From Chthonomonadaceae bacterium (GTDB taxonomy: Bacteria > Armatimonadota > Chthonomonadetes > Chthonomonadales > Chthonomonadaceae), in the NCBI GenBank assembly GCA_025054835.1, contig JANWZQ010000180.1:1-41759 (forward strand): DNA of 41,759 bases, read 5' to 3'. Shown one piece after another: positions 1-39,375 of this stretch (position 1 is its first letter; every line of letters begins with the position of its first letter). The notes beneath the pieces are model-generated. The model saw nothing but the letters and a program-made list of their open reading frames with translations, was not told the origin of the DNA and did no database searches. A program made the translations under genes and the position numbers.

Positions 1-233
1 ATTCTTCACTTCTCTCGAGAGGTCTCTCCTCTCTTATGGAATTAGCCCAGTGCGATTGAAAAGGTATTGCCTTGCCTGTTCTTTTGCCTGTCACTGGGGT
101 TTTATTACTGTTTTCGTCGTCATTGTGTGCGAGAGTATGAAGACTTCATCAAAAAGTCTCCGGGAGAAAGGGCTCCGGAGCCACACAGTCAGGAAGTGAC
201 GCCAGACACTGATTGAGATGCGAGGTGCTGCTC
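1..233. other. AT-richer leader upstream of the large ATPase
   Basis: No gene is visible here. The first 180 bases are about 47% G+C by my count, clearly below the coding sequence that follows. Short inverted stretches are present around 14-37 (CTCTCGAGAG) and 159-180 (CTCCGG and CCGGAG arms), but no convincing promoter or terminator. The low G+C could simply be intergenic composition or could mark a boundary with acquired DNA; the window edge prevents a decision. Confidence 0.4.
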
Positions 234-3200
234 ATGCCAACCCTGTATGAGATCGTGGGTAATATAGAGCCCATTATTGACACGTTCCGGGCAAGCGCTC
301 TGAGGAATACCCCCGGCGCAGTCCGTACTGCATACGAGCCCAATGCGGAGCGTTACTTTGCCAGCGAAGCGGTACGTCAGGTGCGCGACAACCTGCTCAA
401 GCGCCTGAAACAGGGCGAGCGGGCGCTGGGCTACCTCATCGGCGAATACGGCTATGGGAAAACCGCTGCCGCCATATACCTCTGGAGAGAGTGCGAACGC
501 AACGGCATTGTTGCCGTTCCCCCATTCCAGTTCACCAGCTTTGATGACCTGACAGAAGCGGTAACCGGGTGGCTTCGACAGGCCATCATCGACCGCCGTG
601 CCGATCTGGTCCCGCAGGTAGATGCGTTGCAGGAACGCTATCACGGGCGCTCCGTGGAGCAACGTGCTACGGAACTGGCCCGGCAGCACGATCTGCCGGT
701 AGACAAGGCGCGCGAGATCGTTGCGAAAGAGATTGCTCCCATAACCAGTATCGGGCAGGCAGGGCACGTGTCGGATTTTCTGGAGGCTGCGACTCGCCTG
801 GCGCAGGAGGCCGGGTATCAGGGGCTGATCGTCTTTGCAGACGAAATGCAAGCCTTTCTGGAGGCGGGAGATATACGTAAGAACATCGAAGCCCTGCGGC
901 AACTGGTGCTCGCCCTGCGCCTCTCGAAAGCGGTTCTGGGCCTGATGCTTGTGATCCATGAGCGGTCTGCTATGCTCGTTGCGGAGAATACAGGCGATGC
1001 CATGCAACGCCTGCAGGATGACGGCGCAGCGCTCAATCTGGGGCAGCACCTGGACGTAGAGTTCCCCCGTCATCTCATGGAGTACCTCTGTCAGAAAGCA
1101 GGGGTGGAGCGGGACCTCGTGGTTGACACAGCCACACTGGAAGCGCTCGGGCAGATCACGCTGCGCAAGGACCTCTCTAACGGGCCACGCACCGTGGCAG
1201 CGGCCGTACGTTGCATCGTTCGCCACCATAACGAGCAGGCGAAGCCGTATCGCATCCAGGATCTGGCGCGCGATTACGAGGAGCGCCGTATTGTCTTCGA
1301 CGGCGTGGAGCGCTCGCTCTCCGGAGTAATGGCCCGGTTGCTGGCCGATGATGTGGTCCGGAAGGACGCGCGCTACGGCGATGTGGTGCGGTTCCTCTGC
1401 ATGTTTCCGGAGGGCGCCCCTGAGCAGTTCCTGCGCCAGTACGGTCTGGAGATCGCCCTGGTGGAACTGGCCCAGAGGGAGGGGTTGCTCGGCACCATGA
1501 TTTACGCGCCCAAGGCGGAGCACTGGGCGCTCCGGGCGTTGCAACTGGATGCCGGTGCGGAAGACCGTCTGACAGAATTTGTGCGGCAGTTCCGGGACCG
1601 GGGATGGTATCACGCTACGCCGGAAGAGCGCCTGCAGATCGCGCGTGCCGCCTTCGCCAAGCTACTGTTGCCAGAAATCCTGCCTCGCCGTGGACCGGGA
1701 GAAGGCAAACGAAAATTCTGGGGGCATCTCAACTGGGATAGAGAGTCCTTCCGCGACCCGGGCGAGATCATTCTGCGGGGTAGCTTCGAGAGCACGGTGA
1801 CGCGCTTCCCGGAGCGCAAGGTGGCAATTCTCATTGGATCCAGAGAGGACAGGATGCGCGCCTACCGTCCTGACGAGGACACACATCTGGTCTTCGCTTT
1901 TCATCTGCTACCGTTCGGAGGTGCAGAAAAGAATCGTGTGGAGACAGTGTGCAACAGCTCCCGCGTGGACTTTTTCCTCAATCTGGACGTGAGTGTCACC
2001 ACTCTGACTCCAGACCACGATTTCCCACCGGAACTGCAGGTGCTGCGCGACAGCATCGTTCCAAGCCAGTGCACCGCGGCAATTCTGCTCAATTTGATCT
2101 TCTACATCGAGGATCAACTGCCCCGGTTGGTGATGCCGGAGGCCGACCGACAGCAGATAAAGCAGTACCTGTGGCGCAGCGCGCTCAGGAACCTGGAGCA
2201 ACTGCTGTTCCCGGCAGACATGGAGGCCACTGGTGTCTCCGTGCAGGCGCGCGGCCGGCAGTTGCTTGAGTCGATCTTCACACAGAAGCTGGAAGAACTC
2301 TACCCGCACTATCGCGCTCTGCACACCGGCACCGAGGCGCAGAATGACCTGAAGAGATACGAGCGCTTGCTGAAGGAGGGTGGTTTTCGGCTTGCTGTCA
2401 AGCGGGGGCAGATGCCGGTGCGCCTCTCCACAACCGAGTTCCTGCAGAAGGCAGGGGGGAGCACGGGTTCGCAGTTTGACGCAATCGTGTCGCGCCTGAA
2501 GGGGCTCGGGTTGCTCGAGACCAGTAAGGAAGAGACACAGCTGGATGACAACGGACGGCGTGTGCGCACGCTAGAATTCACGCTCGTCGAGCACCCTCTG
2601 GAGGTGCATTTGCGGCAGCAGATAGAGAGACACGGCACAGAGTTCACCGTCCGGCGAGGTGGGAGGTTGCATGAGACACGCCGTCTGCCACGGGAGCACC
2701 TGCAACGTCTGGCAGTGCGTCTGGGGTACCTTGTCGAGGAGTTTGAAACGATCCTGAATCTGGCGTGCTGGCGTGAGTGGCTTGACGTCGAAGACACGCA
2801 CGTCTTTCTGGCGGTGCCGGACACCGACCCGGACACGTTGCGCCGGGAAGCGCAGGAGCTCCGCGATCAGATAGAGGCATTTGCCGATGTGGACATAGAA
2901 GAGGCCACAGCACTGCGTGACCGTCTCGATATGATCGCCCGGCGCATTGATGCGGGTGATCCAGAGATATTGAGCGACACGAGCGTGGAACTGCGCGTGC
3001 TGCGCGAGAGGCTGGCGGCACTCGTCCGAAGCTATGCACGGAGGCAGGAAGAAAAACGTAAGGAGCTTCATGGCAAGGTGCGTGTCATTCTGCGCTCTGT
3101 GCCTGAGCTGGAGGAACCCATTGCCATCCCGGGTGCCATCGGGGGCAAGCTGGAAGAGATCCGTCGTCGCCTGCAGAAAAACAGCGTGAAGTTGCGCACA

Positions 3201-4223
3201 GAGTTGCAGGCCCTGCAGGAGATGGTATGGGCTTCCATAGGTGACGAGGACATCGAGAGTGTCCACGAACTGATCCAGCAACAACAGAGAGATGCAGAGA
3301 GGGAGCAGAAGGCTGTACAACTGAACAAACAGATCCGATGGCTGAGCCAGCTTCGAGAACATCTGGAGCACTGGAAAGCACTGGCTCATAGCGCGCTTCA
3401 ACTCGAACAGGAGGCCAGGGAGAACGCGCCGGACATCGCAGAACGGCTGACCACATGGTCGGACGAAGTGATCATGCTCTTCAGCAGCAACGACCAGCTG
3501 GTGGAAGCCATCGCGAAGCATACGGAGTTTGAGCCACGCCTCAAAGCGTTGCGTGCCGAGCAGGACGGCAGGGCGCAGCAGTTGCGCGATGCGTTCACGC
3601 AATATCATGCGCGCCTGTGCCAGTTGATGCGCGAGAACCGGCTTCCGGAACCCCGCGAGCACGCCTTTGATCCCCAGAACCCCGATCGGTCCTATGAGGC
3701 TCTGGCAGCAGAAGTGGCGCGCCTCCTGCGGGAGGCCCTGCAGACGCTTTTGCTTCCTCTCGAGGAGATTATTGCCCGGTGTACGTTCCTCCTCGAGTTC
3801 CGGCAACGGCATGAAGCTCTGGCTGCCCGGATGGAGGCAGAACGGATGCATTCCTCCATCAGCAACGCCATCAGTGAGGCCCATGAGAGAATGGTGCTGG
3901 AGTTCCGTCAGGGGAACGAGAAGTTGATCGAACTCTGTGGAGCGTACGCGGAAGCTCTGGCGAAGCAGGGGGTGCTGGCACAAAAGGTGGCCGCATTGGA
4001 ACAACCGGATCCACCGCGCCCGGGAGTGCAGGAGGAAGTGTTGCTCGCCATTCGGCGCTATGAGCGTGACAACGGAGGGCGCACCACACCGGTTACCATG
4101 GCGGGACTGTATCAATCCCTGCGCAAGCGGCAACGCCTGACAGCCAATGACCTGTTCTCTGCGGTGCAGCAACTCTACATGCAGGGGAATGTGGAGATCA
4201 TCCTGCGCGAGCGGTGCGAGTAG
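234..4223 (+). CDS. Large P-loop ATPase with long helical C-terminal half, possibly BREX BrxC/PglY-like
   Basis: This protein of about 1329 residues has an N-terminal NTPase domain. Walker A is GEYGYGKT at residues 70-77. Walker B is LIVFADE, with D203-E204, followed by sensor-like helices. The middle carries alpha/beta and winged-helix-like segments. Residues from about 860 to 1250 are charged and rich in heptad-like Leu/Glu/Arg/Gln, suggesting coiled coil. The last 60 residues resemble a winged helix. I chose ATG 234 because GAGGTG sits six bases upstream; a TTG at 213 is also in frame. The size and plan recall the giant ATPases of phage-defence systems such as BREX BrxC/PglY, or other DNA-processing ATPases, but I do not recognise the family firmly. 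The downstream neighbours are housekeeping genes, so any partner genes would lie to the left of the window. Confidence 0.6.
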   Translation: MPTLYEIVGNIEPIIDTFRASALRNTPGAVRTAYEPNAERYFASEAVRQVRDNLLKRLKQGERALGYLIGEYGYGKTAAAIYLWRECERNGIVAVPPFQFTSFDDLTEAVTGWLRQAIIDRRADLVPQVDALQERYHGRSVEQRATELARQHDLPVDKAREIVAKEIAPITSIGQAGHVSDFLEAATRLAQEAGYQGLIVFADEMQAFLEAGDIRKNIEALRQLVLALRLSKAVLGLMLVIHERSAMLVAENTGDAMQRLQDDGAALNLGQHLDVEFPRHLMEYLCQKAGVERDLVVDTATLEALGQITLRKDLSNGPRTVAAAVRCIVRHHNEQAKPYRIQDLARDYEERRIVFDGVERSLSGVMARLLADDVVRKDARYGDVVRFLCMFPEGAPEQFLRQYGLEIALVELAQREGLLGTMIYAPKAEHWALRALQLDAGAEDRLTEFVRQFRDRGWYHATPEERLQIARAAFAKLLLPEILPRRGPGEGKRKFWGHLNWDRESFRDPGEIILRGSFESTVTRFPERKVAILIGSREDRMRAYRPDEDTHLVFAFHLLPFGGAEKNRVETVCNSSRVDFFLNLDVSVTTLTPDHDFPPELQVLRDSIVPSQCTAAILLNLIFYIEDQLPRLVMPEADRQQIKQYLWRSALRNLEQLLFPADMEATGVSVQARGRQLLESIFTQKLEELYPHYRALHTGTEAQNDLKRYERLLKEGGFRLAVKRGQMPVRLSTTEFLQKAGGSTGSQFDAIVSRLKGLGLLETSKEETQLDDNGRRVRTLEFTLVEHPLEVHLRQQIERHGTEFTVRRGGRLHETRRLPREHLQRLAVRLGYLVEEFETILNLACWREWLDVEDTHVFLAVPDTDPDTLRREAQELRDQIEAFADVDIEEATALRDRLDMIARRIDAGDPEILSDTSVELRVLRERLAALVRSYARRQEEKRKELHGKVRVILRSVPELEEPIAIPGAIGGKLEEIRRRLQKNSVKLRTELQALQEMVWASIGDEDIESVHELIQQQQRDAEREQKAVQLNKQIRWLSQLREHLEHWKALAHSALQLEQEARENAPDIAERLTTWSDEVIMLFSSNDQLVEAIAKHTEFEPRLKALRAEQDGRAQQLRDAFTQYHARLCQLMRENRLPEPREHAFDPQNPDRSYEALAAEVARLLREALQTLLLPLEEIIARCTFLLEFRQRHEALAARMEAERMHSSISNAISEAHERMVLEFRQGNEKLIELCGAYAEALAKQGVLAQKVAALEQPDPPRPGVQEEVLLAIRRYERDNGGRTTPVTMAGLYQSLRKRQRLTANDLFSAVQQLYMQGNVEIILRERCE

Positions 4224-10110: not shown

Positions 10111-11421
10111 CTAGAAGGGGTTCACCGGTGTGCCATTTACCCGGACTTCGAAGTGCAGATGCGGGCCGGTAGAAAGGCCGGTGGAACCTACCCGGGCGAT
10201 CACCTGCCCCTGCCGGACTTCCTGTCCTTCGCGCACCAGCAGTACCGAGCAGTGTGCGTAGAGGGTGGTACGGCCGTCTCCGTGGTCGATGATCACGCAG
10301 TTGCCATATCCTCCAGAGTAGGCGGCCAGCAACACCACACCACCGGCGGCCGCGCGGATCGGTGTGCCATGGGGTGCTCCGAAGTCCACTCCCGTGTGCA
10401 TGCGGCGGCGGCGCAGAATGGGGTGGAACCGTTCGCCGAAGCCCGAGGTGATGCGCCCGGCAACGGGGCGCATAAAGCCGCCCCGCCAGACAGGCGGCGG
10501 TGTGTATTCAGGGGCTTCCTCCGGCCCCGGTGGGGGAAGTCCACGGCGCTTACGGGCAAGTTCCAGCGCCCTTCTGCGGGCCAGAGCCGCGCGACGCAGT
10601 GCTTCCTGCCGGCGACGCAGCATTTCGGAGAGCATGCGGATGCGCGCAGTCATGGCGCGCGCCTCCTCTTCCAGCTCATCCAGCATCTCTTCCGCTTCGT
10701 GACGTTGTTCCTGCACCTGATCGAGCAACTGCCGTTGTTGTGCCCGATCCCGCAGATAGTCCTGCTTGCGCGCCTCGAACTCGGCTGCAAGCGCCTGCTG
10801 CTCCCGGCGTTGCTGCTCGAGGCGGCGTTTGTCTGCGGCAATCTGTGCCAGGTCGCGCTTCACACCCTCAATCAGCTCGGCGTCGCTGCGCACGATGTGC
10901 TGGACGTAGACGCTGCGTGACAGCAGTTCCTGCAGATCCCGGGATTGCAGCAACACCTGCAGGTAGTTCGTCGGCCCTCGTGCGTAGTTTTCGCGCAGGC
11001 GGCGGGCCAGCAGGATGCGGCGTTGCGCCAGTCGCTCCTCTGTCTCCTCCAGACGGCGGGTCACGCGATCGTGTGCTTCACCGAGTTCCCGCAGGCGCTG
11101 GCGCACTGCGTTCAGGCGCTCCTGCGTGCGTGCGATCCGGGCATTCACGGTCTCGATGGTGTCGGCAATGGCGATTTCCCGATCTTTTGCCTGCCGGATC
11201 TGTGTCTGCACTTTCTGCATCTGCTGTTGCATACCGCGCAGTTGCTGGCGCAACCGGGCCTTCTGGGCAGCCGCCGCACTGGCCTCCCGGGCCGAGAGAA
11301 CACGTCGAGGGGAGGCTTTTGCTTCTTTCGCATAGCGTGGAACAGACTGCTGTGCCGTACCGCTTCCGGCAAGGAGCGCCGCCAGTACGCCGAGACCGAT
11401 TGTCCGGACAGGGGAGCGCAT
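10111..11421 (-). CDS. envC: EnvC-like murein hydrolase activator, LytM/M23 domain
   Basis: The 436-residue protein has a signal peptide (residues 1-23), a long coiled-coil region of about 240 residues, and a C-terminal LytM (peptidase M23) domain. The zinc-site residues appear intact: H342 and D346 (HTGVD), H390 (YAHC) and H421/H423 (HLHFEV). In Escherichia coli EnvC the metal ligands are lost and the protein only activates amidases; here the retained residues suggest it could itself cleave peptidoglycan. It follows ftsX with a one-base gap, so it is the periplasmic effector pulled by FtsEX during septum splitting. Its 3' end converges on gltB with a 21-base gap and no obvious terminator. 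Confidence 0.93.
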   Translation of the reverse strand: MRSPVRTIGLGVLAALLAGSGTAQQSVPRYAKEAKASPRRVLSAREASAAAAQKARLRQQLRGMQQQMQKVQTQIRQAKDREIAIADTIETVNARIARTQERLNAVRQRLRELGEAHDRVTRRLEETEERLAQRRILLARRLRENYARGPTNYLQVLLQSRDLQELLSRSVYVQHIVRSDAELIEGVKRDLAQIAADKRRLEQQRREQQALAAEFEARKQDYLRDRAQQRQLLDQVQEQRHEAEEMLDELEEEARAMTARIRMLSEMLRRRQEALRRAALARRRALELARKRRGLPPPGPEEAPEYTPPPVWRGGFMRPVAGRITSGFGERFHPILRRRRMHTGVDFGAPHGTPIRAAAGGVVLLAAYSGGYGNCVIIDHGDGRTTLYAHCSVLLVREGQEVRQGQVIARVGSTGLSTGPHLHFEVRVNGTPVNPF

Positions 11422-34210: not shown

Positions 34211-35050
34211 TCACAGGAGACATTGCTTCTGCACGTCGGAGATCACGTGGTGTGACAGAGCCTGATCCTGTTCTCGCAACGAGGTAGCCGTGTGGATCGA
34301 AAGCACCCGGGCATCCGGGAGGGCCAGCAACAGCGCCCCCTGCGTATCCACACCTACTGCGACGCCTGCCACCGTCTGCCCTTCGATTTCCGTGGCGTAG
34401 TGCCGACCCGGGGTCTGGTCGAAGGCGCGCCACCGTTCCAGAATAGCCTCGGGGCCCTGCTCCCGCCAGATACTGGCCCAGAGACACAGGGAGGCCGGGA
34501 CCTGCTCCCCCAGTGTGCGCCAGTCGGGACAGGGAAGCCCTTCGCGATGCAACGAAGTGGCCAGGCGGGCGATCCCGTCCGGGAAGTGTGTGGTGCTCAG
34601 GTTGATCCCGACACCGATCAGGGCCACCCAGTCCTGGTCTGGAGCCTGTATCATCTCGATGAGGATCCCGCCCAGCTTGCGGCGATTGAGCAGCAGGTCA
34701 TTGGGCCACTTCAGACCAAGTGCGGCCGGAGCACCTGCCATGGCAGGCGTGCACAGGGGGAGGAGAACATCGAGGACGGCCACACCGGCCAGTAGAGCCA
34801 GGGTACCTGCCTGTTCCGGGTGGGTGCGCGGGTGTCGGAAGTAGTAGGTGGCGTTCAGATTCGCCCCGGGCTCCGCGTACCAGTCCCGGCCTCTCTGTCC
34901 GCGCCCGGCGATCTGCTCCCGGGCGATCACGCCCGCGGGATGCGGCCTGCCGGCAGAATCAAAGCATACCCGACCGGACCGGACGTTCTCCCGGGCCACA
35001 TCCATGGTGGAGGTGACACGGTCATGGACGTCCACGATGATGCGATACAT
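34211..35050 (-). CDS. birA: Biotin--[acetyl-CoA-carboxylase] ligase, catalytic domain only
   Basis: The 279-residue enzyme activates biotin and attaches it to carboxylase carrier proteins. The catalytic signatures are VTSTMDVA, REQIAGRGQRGRDWYAEPGANL (biotinyl-AMP loop), LKWPNDLLLNRRKLGGIL and GVGINLS. No N-terminal helix-turn-helix is present, so this is a class I ligase that cannot act as the BirA repressor. The start is ATG 35050, one base after the nadC stop, so nadC and birA are tightly coupled. Confidence 0.93.
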   Translation of the reverse strand: MYRIIVDVHDRVTSTMDVARENVRSGRVCFDSAGRPHPAGVIAREQIAGRGQRGRDWYAEPGANLNATYYFRHPRTHPEQAGTLALLAGVAVLDVLLPLCTPAMAGAPAALGLKWPNDLLLNRRKLGGILIEMIQAPDQDWVALIGVGINLSTTHFPDGIARLATSLHREGLPCPDWRTLGEQVPASLCLWASIWREQGPEAILERWRAFDQTPGRHYATEIEGQTVAGVAVGVDTQGALLLALPDARVLSIHTATSLREQDQALSHHVISDVQKQCLL

Positions 35051-35051
35051 C

Positions 35052-35906
35052 TCATCCACAGTTCTGAGGCAATGAGGAGAGCTCCAGGCTGATGTCAACT
35101 GCCGGTGCCGAGTGCGTCAGTGCTCCTACCGAGATGATATCCACTCCAGTCTGCGCGATGGCGGCAACCGTCTGCTCGTTCACGCCCCCGCTCGCTTCCG
35201 TCACGGCCCGCCCGGCGACGCGCTTCACGGCCTGCTGCAGGGTGGGCAGATCCATATTGTCCAGCAACAGGATCTGCGCCCCGGCCTGCAGGGCCTCGTC
35301 CACCTGCTCCAGCGTGGCGCACTCCACGGTGATGGTCATGGTGTGTGGTGCTCGGGTCGCTGCCTGCACAGCCGCGGTAATACTGCCGCAGGCCTGGATA
35401 TGATTATCCTTGATCAGGACGGCATCGTAGAGGCCCGAGCGGTGATTGAACCCGCCCCCTGTGCGCACCGCGTACTTCTCCAGCGCACGCAACCCCGGTG
35501 TGGTCTTGCGCGTGTCCGCGATCCGGGCGTGCGTTCCCTGCACCAGCGCCACAAAGCGGGACGTGCGCGTGGCAATGCCGCTCAGGCGTTGCACAAAGTT
35601 CAACGCCACACGCTCACCGGTCAGTATCGCCTGCGCCCGTCCCGTGATCTCGCATAGCAGGTCGCCGCTCCGGAAGGATGCCCCTTCGGCCAGCAACGCA
35701 CGGAACTGCAACGAGGGGTCTACCTGGCGGAAAACCTCCTGTGCTACGGGCAGGCCTGCGACGACCCCATCCTGCCTGGCGAGCATCACGGCATGCGCCT
35801 GCGCCTCCGCAGGAACAGTCAGCAGGGTTGTGATATCTCCGGTTCCAACGTCTTCCTGAAGCGCTCGACGGACGGTCTCCACATAATCAGAAGGCAGATA
35901 CGGCAT
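35052..35906 (-). CDS. nadC: Nicotinate-nucleotide pyrophosphorylase (quinolinate phosphoribosyltransferase)
   Basis: The 284-residue enzyme converts quinolinate and PRPP to nicotinate mononucleotide. It shows the family pattern from DVGTGDIT near the N-terminus through LNFVQRLSGIATRTS, DTRKTTPGLRALEKYAVRTGGGFNHR, LIKDNH, VECATLEQVDEALQAGAQILLLDNM and EASGGVNEQTV to VDIISVGALTHS. GGAG lies seven bases before the ATG. It sits between the STAS-Usp gene (41-base gap) and birA (one-base gap). Confidence 0.97.
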   Translation of the reverse strand: MPYLPSDYVETVRRALQEDVGTGDITTLLTVPAEAQAHAVMLARQDGVVAGLPVAQEVFRQVDPSLQFRALLAEGASFRSGDLLCEITGRAQAILTGERVALNFVQRLSGIATRTSRFVALVQGTHARIADTRKTTPGLRALEKYAVRTGGGFNHRSGLYDAVLIKDNHIQACGSITAAVQAATRAPHTMTITVECATLEQVDEALQAGAQILLLDNMDLPTLQQAVKRVAGRAVTEASGGVNEQTVAAIAQTGVDIISVGALTHSAPAVDISLELSSLPQNCG

Positions 35907-35947: not shown

Positions 35948-36739
35948 TCACTTGCGCTTACCCCGTCCGATCACCACTTCGCAGGGCGCACGCTTGATCA
36001 GGGTTTCCACAATGCTCTGCAGGTGCTCGCTGGCCTCGTCCTGTTCCGGGTATTGCGACACGCCCAGCACGACCCGTTCGGCGCCGCACTGTTTCAGGAA
36101 GCTGACGATCCCATCGCTGGCTTCCCGCACCTTCTCCAGATGTGTGTTGACCGGCACGTTGTGCGTCTTCAGGATCCGGTGTGCCTGATCCAGCGATGCC
36201 TGTGCAGCCTGTTCTGCCTCTCCCATAGGAGCGTTGAGAGGCAGGTTCCGGGCGACTTCCAGGAAGTAGACCAGCAGCACCTCATGATGACCTGCTCTGG
36301 CCAGCAGGGCCGCCAGTTCCGCGCCGTAGGTCAGGTCCATGTCGCCCAGAAGCGGCACGACCAGCAATGCGCCATGCTTGCCGTTACCGGCGACGCCCTG
36401 TGTCCTGCTGGAGAGGCGCAGAGAACACCGTGCCTCCTCGATCGAATGTGCAATGGGTAACTGGGAACGTACCCCGGGGATGGATTTGCACACCGAGAGC
36501 ACTTTCTCCGGAAGGTTTGCAACGATGATCCGGGAGTGCGCGGCCTCGATGTCGTTCATGGCATCCAGAAATGTACGGGCCCCGCCTTCGGAGATGTCTT
36601 CCAGTTCCGAACAGTCGATAATAATTCCCTGAGGATACTCTTGCAGCAACAGGTTGGCCGCCGCCTTGATGGCCTTCCACTGGTTCTTGTGCAGTGAGCC
36701 GGAGAGGCTCAACACGTCGTCTTTGGACTTGATGATCAT
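35948..36739 (-). CDS. STAS-Usp fusion protein
   Basis: The 263-residue protein joins two signalling folds. Residues 1-105 form a STAS domain (anti-sigma factor antagonist type) with GIIIDCSELEDISEGGARTFLDAM; Ser50 falls where SpoIIAA-like proteins are phosphorylated. Residues about 120-263 resemble a universal stress protein domain: ALLVVPLLGDMDLTYGAELAALL at the start and AERVVLGVSQ then CEVVIGRGKR at the end. The glycine-rich G-x2-G-x9-G ATP loop of Usp is not evident. The start is ATG 36739, which has GAGGAGCGAGAAAG just upstream. It is divergent from a sensor kinase and precedes nadC. No anti-sigma kinase is adjacent. Confidence 0.75.
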   Translation of the reverse strand: MIIKSKDDVLSLSGSLHKNQWKAIKAAANLLLQEYPQGIIIDCSELEDISEGGARTFLDAMNDIEAAHSRIIVANLPEKVLSVCKSIPGVRSQLPIAHSIEEARCSLRLSSRTQGVAGNGKHGALLVVPLLGDMDLTYGAELAALLARAGHHEVLLVYFLEVARNLPLNAPMGEAEQAAQASLDQAHRILKTHNVPVNTHLEKVREASDGIVSFLKQCGAERVVLGVSQYPEQDEASEHLQSIVETLIKRAPCEVVIGRGKRK

Positions 36740-37065
36740 TCTTTCTCGCTCCTCACAGCCCGGTTGCCAGCCCATCCCCATGAGCAGCACGCCCCGGTGC
36801 TGCTACGGTTCGCGATGGGGGCGCCCTGCCGGGCCGTTGGATAGTATACCCTGCGCGCTTCTGCCGTCTCTGGCAGACATGCCCGGCACCCCGGTCTCCC
36901 TCAGGATCTCTCCTGCAAACCGTATGCCACTTCCTCCAGCAGGGACCATGTGCCCGGATGCGCAGGAAATGGTCTGGTGTAGCGTGAACCTGACCTCATA
37001 CGTGTGCAGCATCGTCATGAGGAGAGCGCAAACCTGCTGACCTTGATTCCAGAGGTGTTTCCCGT
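36740..37065. other. Divergent control region between STAS-Usp and the sensor kinase
   Basis: The region holds a minus-strand -10 (TATACT, 36848-36843) and, in the resulting leader, a nested hairpin: CCCCAT (36776-36781) pairs with ATGGGG (36815-36820) around AGCAGCAC (36783-36790) pairing with GTGCTGCT (36797-36804). No gene is convincing; a minus-strand frame over about 36803-37020 has no ribosome site. I saw no clear promoter for the kinase. Confidence 0.45.
36843..36848 (-). promoter_or_regulatory. -10 element for the STAS-Usp operon
   Basis: Reading the minus strand gives GTATACTATCC, the same 11 bases found at the yajQ -10. A matching -35 is not evident. Transcription would begin near 36836, leaving a leader of roughly 100 bases with the nested hairpin. 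Confidence 0.35.
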
Positions 37066-39375
37066 ATGAAATCGCCGCGCACAGCCCGGTTGCTGCAACA
37101 TGCGTTGTGTGGTCTCTGTCTGGCTCTCTGCCTCTGGTTATTCGTGGACAACGCGCTGCAGGCATCCTTCGTCCCAACACGCCTGCTATCTCTGTTCGCC
37201 TCGTTTGTCATTGCTGTTCTCTCGCTGTTGCTACTGGGTCTACGTCCTGCGCAATGTTCCGCCTGCGTGATGGCCCTCTACCTGATGGCCCTTGCCGTTC
37301 TGGCGCGTGACAATATGGCCGGATTGAGTGCGCTCGCACCGTTCGCTCTGGATAGGGAGCGACCGGGTGCCGTGCACTTCCGACCGGTGCATCTGGTCTG
37401 GATTACCATTCTGGGGACCGCTCCCCTGCTTTTCGCAGGGCTCGTTGTCGGCAGGCCCGCGCAGGGGCCGTTCCGGATCCGCCGCATGGTAATGGCCGGA
37501 GGCCTGATCCTGATTCTGGCTGTCGGACAGGCCCTGTTCATCATTCTGGGCTCTCGTGGGGCGCTGCATGTGGTGGCGTTGACGCCCCTGGCACTGCGCT
37601 TGCATTTCCCGCAGCATCAATTGTTGCTCTACGCGGCGCCATTCCTGATGCTGCAGCAACTGATTGCTCTGGGGGTGCTCTGGAAGCACTATCAGGAACA
37701 GCCTGAGGGCCGCCGGATGGCCCTCCTGAGCGTGGTCGGGATTGCAACGCTGTTTACAGCGCTCTGCATCATCAATAACTCGTTGCCGACTCCGCTGACC
37801 GGTCTGCTTGCCAACCTCTGTGCGTACCTCATTCCGATCGTTTTTGTATGGGCTACAGAACGATACGCACTGTTCGACATCAAAATCACCGTGCGCCGTG
37901 TGGTGCGCTACGCGCTGGCCCGGCAGATCCTGACCGCGATGACCCTTGGTCCGTTGCTCGTTCTGACATTTCTGCTGGGTTTCTATTTCAACCCGGGGCG
38001 GATCGGGAGCAACATGACCGCCGGGGGCTTTGTCCCCGATTGGCGCGATGCCCTGCAGCAGCAGGGCGTGATCCCCTGCCTGATTCTTTTCGGTGTGTTT
38101 GCAGCAATGCTTGCGTTACGCCTACCCCTGTTACGCTGGCTGGATCGCGCCTACTTCCGTGAGGTCTACAATGCGCAGGAGATCCTCAACCGGGTGGGGC
38201 GTTCGCTGGTTGGCCTGTCGGACCCGCAGGAGATCGCCCGGCGCGCTCTGGCGGGGATCGATGCGGCATTGCATCCTGTATGTGCGCTGTTACTGGTTGC
38301 CGACGGCGAGCGGGCGCAGCGTATCGGTATGCAGGGCATCGTGCCCTGCATACCTCTGCTGGAGGATCCTTCTCTGTTGCGGGTCGATCAGGTGACGGAG
38401 ATCGGGCCTGCCGGGAGGGGACCGTTGAGACCACCGAACCTGCCGGGGGACCTGTCGGCGCAGATACACGCGTCGTTGCAGGAGGCAAGGATCCGGATGA
38501 TCCTGCCCTTGCGGGAGGAAGAGCGTACTACCGGGGTGCTGTTGCTCGGGGAAAAGGCTTCCGGGGTCGAGTACACTCCGGACGACATCGAGATCCTGCA
38601 GGCGCTCGCAGCACATATTGCGCTGGCCTTGCTGAGCGCACGCCTCAATCAAGAGTTGCTACAGCAGGGCACACGAGAATTGACTGCGCGCTCTGCCGAC
38701 TTCATTGCGCAGATCGAGCGTGAACGGCGCCTGCTGGCTGCTGATCTGCACGACCAGACTCTGCCAGAACTGCGGGCACTTCTCGCTGACCTGCACGCTC
38801 TTGAGGAACAGCAGACGTCGTCGGGGCCAGATCGGGCCGGTCGTGTGACAGGACCTACCCCGCGCGTGATGGCCGAGCACCTGCGTGTGGCGATCGAGAA
38901 CATCCGGGATATGATGGAGAGCCTGCGCCCCTCTGCGCTGGAGATGCTCGGCCTCCTGCCTGCTCTGGAGAACGAGTTGCGCAAGTCCGCGGCGCGTGCG
39001 CGACCACCCATTGTGCCACAGTTTCATGCTGCGCCGGAAGTCAGTGGGTGTGTGCTGGACGCGTTCGCGGAAGTCTCGGTCTTCCGGATCATGCAGGAGG
39101 GCGTGAACAATGCCTGTCGCCACGCTGGCGCGCAGACTGTTCGTGTCGAGGTGCGCGTTGACGGGGGGGACTGGGTACTGACCGTGGAGGATGACGGACA
39201 CGGTCTACCCCCGGAAGGGGAGCGCCATCAGGGACACGGGCTGGAGAACATGCGCTATCGGGCCGGGTTGATCCATGCGCAGGTGTCATGGTCTACCCCG
39301 GAGAGTGGAAGGGGAACGCGCATGGAGCTACGCGTTCCGCTACGTCACTCCGGGGTTTCACACGCAGCCCCCTGA
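37066..39375 (+). CDS. Orphan NarL-type sensor histidine kinase, multi-TM plus GAF
   Basis: The 769-residue protein has eight to nine hydrophobic helices in residues 1-370, resembling a membrane sensor module. A GAF-like domain follows (about 375-535: EILNRVGRSLVGLSDPQEIARRAL to EILQALAAHIALALL), then a HisKA_3 domain with H562 in LLAADLHDQTLPELR and a HATPase domain with N-box EGVNNACRHAGA and G-boxes VEDDGHGL and GHGLENMRYRA. Such kinases normally signal to LuxR/NarL response regulators; none is present here. AGAGGTG precedes the ATG. The last six codons overlap the end of the convergent glgB gene. Confidence 0.93.
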   Translation: MKSPRTARLLQHALCGLCLALCLWLFVDNALQASFVPTRLLSLFASFVIAVLSLLLLGLRPAQCSACVMALYLMALAVLARDNMAGLSALAPFALDRERPGAVHFRPVHLVWITILGTAPLLFAGLVVGRPAQGPFRIRRMVMAGGLILILAVGQALFIILGSRGALHVVALTPLALRLHFPQHQLLLYAAPFLMLQQLIALGVLWKHYQEQPEGRRMALLSVVGIATLFTALCIINNSLPTPLTGLLANLCAYLIPIVFVWATERYALFDIKITVRRVVRYALARQILTAMTLGPLLVLTFLLGFYFNPGRIGSNMTAGGFVPDWRDALQQQGVIPCLILFGVFAAMLALRLPLLRWLDRAYFREVYNAQEILNRVGRSLVGLSDPQEIARRALAGIDAALHPVCALLLVADGERAQRIGMQGIVPCIPLLEDPSLLRVDQVTEIGPAGRGPLRPPNLPGDLSAQIHASLQEARIRMILPLREEERTTGVLLLGEKASGVEYTPDDIEILQALAAHIALALLSARLNQELLQQGTRELTARSADFIAQIERERRLLAADLHDQTLPELRALLADLHALEEQQTSSGPDRAGRVTGPTPRVMAEHLRVAIENIRDMMESLRPSALEMLGLLPALENELRKSAARARPPIVPQFHAAPEVSGCVLDAFAEVSVFRIMQEGVNNACRHAGAQTVRVEVRVDGGDWVLTVEDDGHGLPPEGERHQGHGLENMRYRAGLIHAQVSWSTPESGRGTRMELRVPLRHSGVSHAAP

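Follow-up and report, generated by a model that had tools for sequence, protein, structure and literature searches.

Proteins named 'STAS' or 'universal stress protein' (Usp) are often filed as generic stress signalling. In the STAS protein SpoIIAA the phosphorylated residue is Ser58 (PMC3517971, PMC11418112), and in SypA and RsbV it is Ser56 (PMC10120452, PMC11418112). Potassium uptake offers systems of another kind. The importer KimA of Bacillus subtilis coordinates K+ through four residues, D36, Y43, T230 and Y377, and is described as controlled by a cytosolic domain of its own (PMC10284832), and KdpD binds c-di-AMP through the motif (A/G/C)xSxSx2N(Y/F) of its Usp domain (PMC8214093). Here we analyse a gene of Chthonomonadaceae, phylum Armatimonadota, whose product joins a STAS and a Usp domain in one chain. 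Phylum-wide gene order links this protein to potassium uptake, and its sequence speaks against the usual phospho-switch.

A STAS-Usp gene followed by nadC and birA

The gene lies on the reverse strand of the window, as we call the whole stretch of 41,759 nucleotides that was analysed, and its ATG start codon at position 36739 was fixed by the M-I-I/V that opens the aligned homologues. The gene and its neighbours are:

35948-36739, minus strand: STAS-Usp gene, 263 amino acids (coding 35951-36739, stop codon 35948-35950)
36749-36754, minus strand: GAGGAG, a ribosome-binding-like sequence upstream of the STAS-Usp ATG, read from the sequence
35052-35906, minus strand: nadC, quinolinate phosphoribosyltransferase, downstream of STAS-Usp (Pfam and synteny)
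34211-35098, minus strand: birA-like biotin protein ligase, in the same gene string as nadC (Pfam and synteny)

By synteny, relatives within Chthonomonadaceae keep the string kimA-STAS-Usp-nadC-birA. Divergent from STAS-Usp, the forward strand of the window encodes a membrane histidine kinase whose domains include GAF and HATPase_c (37066-39375), which was rejected as a partner of STAS-Usp because the pairing was not repeated in the neighbourhoods of 40 relatives. Elsewhere in the window, positions 213-4223 of the forward strand encode a 1336-aa P-loop protein with only a weak BrxD-like match (E 4e-4, PADLOC), which could be a large ATPase belonging to a defence or mobile system.

STAS and Usp folds joined in one chain

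Both domains scored above their Pfam cut-offs: PF01740 (STAS) matched residues 9-86 with 27.8 bits against a cut-off of 22.6, and PF00582 (Usp) matched residues 137-257 with 32.0 bits against a cut-off of 24. An AlphaFold2 model built from 41 orthologues (mean pLDDT 91.5, pTM 0.77) had two compact domains with a weak linker around residues 111-120, and the chain was divided as follows:

36410-36739, minus strand: N-terminal STAS domain, residues 1-110 (Pfam, AlphaFold2 model, VIA-align and conservation)
36371-36409, minus strand: variable linker, residues 111-123 (block of low pLDDT, ~58; conservation 0.18)
35960-36370, minus strand: C-terminal Usp domain, residues 124-260 (Pfam, model, and VIA-align with Z 16.4 to the A. 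fulgidus Usp 3qtb)

The top Foldseek match of the model was the Usp domain of KdpD with c-di-AMP (7ji4), and SpoIIAA from the SpoIIAB complex (1thn, 1th8) appeared lower among the matches. In VIA-align, the STAS half gave Z scores of 15.0 to RsbS, 14.8 to the STAS domain of SLC26A11 and 14.7 to SpoIIAA. The Foldseek and VIA-align matches indicate that the sequence-only reading, made without database searches, had named both folds correctly, and the structure prediction upheld the Usp fold of the C-terminal half in particular. By fold and by Pfam score, each half thus belongs to the superfamily after which it is named. The STAS half was the better conserved of the two, with a mean majority-residue fraction of 0.65 versus 0.44 in the Usp half. 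The fusion itself, which that reading took to suggest a stress-input switch outside standard models, was borne out as well and is no chance event: full-length orthologues of the same architecture, with ~30-57% identity, were recovered across Armatimonadota, and NCBIfam holds no named family model for STAS-Usp.

Glu51 occupies the phosphorylation position of the STAS half

The sequence-only reading had placed a serine, Ser50, at the residue that is phosphorylated in STAS proteins. When the protein was aligned by profile with five STAS structures, without gaps from the conserved Asp42 to Gly53, this register proved to be off by one. B. subtilis SpoIIAA reads D57-S58-S59-G60 and STAS-Usp reads I49-S50-E51-G52-G53, so that Ser50 falls on Asp57 and Glu51 on Ser58, and a helix of the AlphaFold2 model starts at residue 51, in agreement with this register. 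The site is:

36587-36592, minus strand: Ser50-Glu51 (profile alignment to 1th8, 1auz, 4hyl and 2mwg; composition in 58 homologues)

Among the 58 homologues, position 51 was Glu in 29, Pro in 11, Gly in 8, Gln in 3, Asp in 2, Ala in 2 and Lys, Ser or His in one each; it was acidic in 31 and Ser or Thr in only one, a Ser. The expected conservation of Ser50 held in part. The position was Ser in 28 homologues, Thr in 22, Asn in 4, Ala in 3 and Asp in 1, a semi-conserved site at which Ser or Thr is kept in 50 of the 58 but Ser itself in only 28.

Other features of a kinase-controlled antagonist were also missing. The kinase-contact position of SpoIIAA, Asp23, is His17 in STAS-Usp and mostly His, Arg, Val or Thr in the 58 homologues (Asp in 1, Glu in 4). 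The NCBIfam anti-sigma antagonist model TIGR00377 scored 20 bits, below its cut-off of 53.45, and no kinase, phosphatase or sigma gene was conserved near STAS-Usp in the relatives. The domain order is STAS followed by Usp, and not the RsbR-type order of an N-terminal sensor and a C-terminal STAS domain. A precedent for Glu at the phosphosite is the STAS domain of YtvA, which aligns N-E-Q-T there. With Glu51 at the Ser58 position and Ser or Thr so rare among homologues, the proposal of a phospho-switched stress input finds no support, and a phosphorylated anti-anti-sigma or stressosome switch was rejected on the basis of the alignment.

The Usp half lacks the canonical nucleotide loop and the KdpD motif

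As suspected from the sequence, the canonical Usp nucleotide loop G-x2-G-x9-G-(S/T) was missing from the Usp half, and this was so in 58 of 58 homologues; a typical Usp encoded in the genome of the window served as control and does have the loop. The c-di-AMP-binding motif of KdpD was likewise absent (0 of 58 homologues). Among aligned homologues Glu176 and Arg205 are invariant and Arg164 is near-invariant, and the fold topology suggests that these three residues sit at strand ends facing the usual ligand edge of Usp proteins. A c-di-AMP synthase was present in all 21 genomes examined. A search for the ydaO/c-di-AMP riboswitch in the window and in seven loci of the family and phylum gave no match to it and returned tRNAs only.

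STAS-Usp is paired with kimA across Armatimonadota

Full-length STAS-Usp orthologues, mostly one per genome, were found in ~135 of 291 Armatimonadota genomes, and no plasmid-borne copies were found. At the sampling and sensitivity of a search of ~106 genomes from other phyla, the STAS half was not seen outside Armatimonadota, and the matches listed covered the Usp half only.

In 31 of 40 Armatimonadota neighbourhoods, from ~20 families, members of one permease cluster lay directly upstream of STAS-Usp on the same strand. This permease aligns with B. subtilis KimA along its entire length (E=1.6e-126), and the K+-site residues D36, Y43 and T230 were kept in 44 of 44 permeases and Y377 in 43 of 44. 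Phylum-wide, kimA lay no more than 217 bp upstream of STAS-Usp in at least 76 of 135 cases, a lower bound, with some genes at contig edges and a few KimA coordinates added from other searches. The gaps ranged from -3 to 217 bp, and 25 of these at least 76 were at or below 0. KimA was encoded somewhere in 133 of the 135 genomes with STAS-Usp versus ~82 of the 156 without it, by lists compared by hand in which genomes were counted regardless of relatedness. Since many KimA-bearing genomes do without STAS-Usp, the protein is not obligatory for KimA. The adjacency was missing in 9 of the 40 neighbourhoods, including those of families such as f4, f5 and f6, and loci of families f3 and f35 had the order KimA, STAS-Usp, RCK, RCK (TrkA; RCK assigned by Pfam).

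Several variants of the arrangement were observed. In families f8 and f19 (loci L053-L058), a STAS-Usp-Usp protein of ~400 aa replaces STAS-Usp, still directly downstream of kimA. In structural comparison this form could be superposed, with Z 13.5-16.4, both on tandem Usps and on the C-terminal regulatory domains of the K-Cl and Na-K-Cl cotransporters (KCC/NKCC), which are also of APC type. One of these loci (L057:2029-5897) carries a tandem pair of kimA genes directly 5' of STAS-Usp-Usp. One draft Armatimonadota genome (G046) has the two halves split into a free STAS of 109 aa and a membrane-anchored Usp:

L158:5583-5912, minus strand: free STAS of G046
L157:383-967, plus strand: free Usp of G046 with a transmembrane anchor

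In Fimbriimonadaceae-like loci (L050, L051, L052, L059, L065, L071 and L072), kimA-STAS-Usp comes after a conserved string of three genes (clusters 6, 4 and 5), of which cluster 5 resembles GlcNAc-6-phosphate deacetylase.

Relatives of the Usp half lie beside or within permeases

Profile match and permease/RCK context place the Usp half in a Usp subfamily linked to APC permeases; in the window, the permease gene does not adjoin STAS-Usp. Locus L147, from another bacterial lineage, encodes an APC permease that carries a related Usp as a C-terminal fusion and is followed by an RCK pair (profile and Pfam). Further relatives, each with a single N-terminal transmembrane segment read from sequence, lie inside strings of APC permease, Usp and RCK genes (L145, L153, L154 and L155) or immediately precede RCK genes (L144). 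Taking these permease-fused and permease-linked Usps together with the split halves of G046 and the superposition on KCC/NKCC, the simplest interpretation is a role in transporter regulation.

The genome of the window lacks the adjacent kimA

The window keeps STAS-Usp-nadC-birA as in the rest of the family; the kimA expected to precede it is missing, and tblastn found no kimA remnant beside STAS-Usp. The single KimA of this genome is encoded on contig C170 and belongs to a strongly supported paralogue clade that was never adjacent to STAS-Usp in the sample. A second KimA may sit in an assembly gap, the assembly being a draft of 202 contigs. An RCK pair is found on contig C96 and a diadenylate cyclase on contig C131. 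The adjacent kimA has been lost in the lineage of the window, and the protein, if still functional, must therefore act in trans.

HATPase_c_2-type kinases also occur in the genome of the window. On contig C179 of genome G000, one frame (1533-2315; L074, L076) combines a STAS domain with the motif S-A-S-G and an HATPase_c_2 kinase domain; this fusion of an antagonist with an anti-sigma-like protein is the closest to a partner-switch kinase seen in the genome. On contig C111 of G000, near 10120-10419 (L073), a WecG/TagA-like glycosyltransferase frame of 540 aa runs into one or two STAS-like stretches and holds a Pfam STAS match.

A proposed role in potassium uptake and its alternatives

From the gene order we infer an interaction with KimA, and consider it reasonably likely that in Armatimonadota STAS-Usp regulates KimA/KUP-type K+/H+ symport (APC superfamily) as a soluble subunit acting in trans. 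It probably serves as a detachable subunit that controls potassium uptake, not as a general-stress phospho-switch. The STAS half would be a docking domain, held non-phosphorylatable by Glu, Pro or Gly at the phosphosite, that may bind the cytosolic side of the transporter or another fixed partner; its better conservation is consistent with a docking surface that is fixed. The Usp half, whose subfamily accompanies APC permeases and TrkA/RCK proteins, would act as sensor or coupler and might respond to a nucleotide or to an ion-linked signal, with c-di-AMP or AMP as the best guess. Physical contact with KimA is presumed, as is the direction of control, and in the lineage of the window the target, reached in trans, would be the KimA paralogue that is left or some other K+ system. 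Against a KimA subunit we count the absence of an adjacent kimA in the window and in 9 of the 40 neighbourhoods, the placement of this genome's single KimA in a clade not observed beside STAS-Usp, the many genomes that have KimA but no STAS-Usp, the c-di-AMP-binding cytosolic domain that KimA itself possesses, and the absence from the Usp half of both the ATP loop and the KdpD motif. More tentatively, and falling somewhat short of probable, STAS-Usp may stand for an undescribed class of separate KUP/KimA regulatory subunits, in which a STAS dock without a phosphosite is joined to a Usp sensor (of c-di-AMP, AMP or another signal), so that two soluble folds known elsewhere as C-terminal regulatory domains of transporters are here put together in trans.

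The Glu of YtvA suggests a different use of the same STAS half, as a phosphorylation-independent scaffold to which partners would be recruited once the Usp half has sensed stress; the linkage to kimA would then stem from common osmotic regulation rather than from direct control. Such a scaffold would suit the part of the family that lies away from kimA and the stronger conservation of the STAS half; we nevertheless hold it to be unlikely, as it explains neither why the gene is so closely paired with kimA, often with overlap, in many families nor why a related Usp is fused to a permease. Partner-switching, with the STAS half antagonising an anti-sigma kinase or sitting in a stressosome and the Usp half providing the stress input, would agree with a STAS fold near RsbS and SpoIIAA, with the HATPase_c_2-type kinases of the genome, one of them STAS-fused, and with a Ser or Thr at position 50 that is modifiable in principle. 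The residue at the acceptor position is Glu51, however, the acidic kinase-contact position is lost, TIGR00377 stays below its cut-off, no kinase, phosphatase or sigma neighbour is conserved, and STAS is N-terminal here but C-terminal in RsbR-type stressosome proteins, all of which makes this explanation quite improbable.

A transporter other than KimA, or RCK-gated K+ channels (TrkA/Ktr), could also be the target, with the kimA linkage secondary. An RCK pair adjoins STAS-Usp in several loci of f3, f4 and f35, in L042, L043 and L047 without kimA, and related Usps occur in strings with RCK genes and APC permeases of unassigned substrate. KimA is nevertheless the commonest neighbour, and most KimA-adjacent families have no adjoining RCK gene in the clustering, so that we give this possibility very little weight. 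If STAS-Usp is indeed a subunit of KimA, then KimA-type importers, known as direct targets of c-di-AMP, have an accessory control subunit across a whole phylum, and the permease-fused Usp of other bacteria is the one-piece counterpart of STAS-Usp plus KimA.

Comparison with known systems

The upstream partner in the relatives is a full-length homologue of B. subtilis KimA (PDB 6s3k, 8b70) with the same K+-site residues, in which the HNQS stretch belonging to the c-di-AMP pocket is often present in part. We know of no separate STAS-Usp subunit for KimA; a separate STAS-Usp protein paired with KimA was found neither in the literature searched nor in NCBIfam, and no report of a STAS-Usp fusion was found in the open-licence papers searched. 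The Usp domain of KdpD (PDB 7ji4, c-di-AMP bound) is also a K+-linked Usp fold without the ATP loop, but it lies inside a histidine kinase and has the c-di-AMP motif that the 58 STAS-Usp homologues lack. TeaD, of the TRAP transporter TeaABC (PDB 3hgm), is a free, transporter-tied Usp and was among the top structural matches; it binds ATP and is without a STAS domain.

With SpoIIAA/RsbV the protein shares the STAS fold, but has Glu in place of the phospho-Ser, has lost the kinase contacts and is not encoded in a kinase operon. In SLC26/SulP proteins the STAS domain is likewise the cytosolic regulatory part of a transporter, as the match to SLC26A11 recalls, but there it is covalently attached, C-terminal and found on anion transporters, not on K+ importers. 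In the regulatory C-terminal domains of KCC/NKCC and in the bacterial structure 3g40, a pair of Usp-like lobes belongs to a cation-coupled transporter of APC type, and STAS-Usp-Usp superposes on these domains; they are, however, fused to the transporter and contain no STAS. Transporters with STAS or Usp domains as regulatory parts are already known; what appears to be new, judged by the papers searched and by NCBIfam, is a separate STAS-Usp protein paired with KimA phylum-wide.
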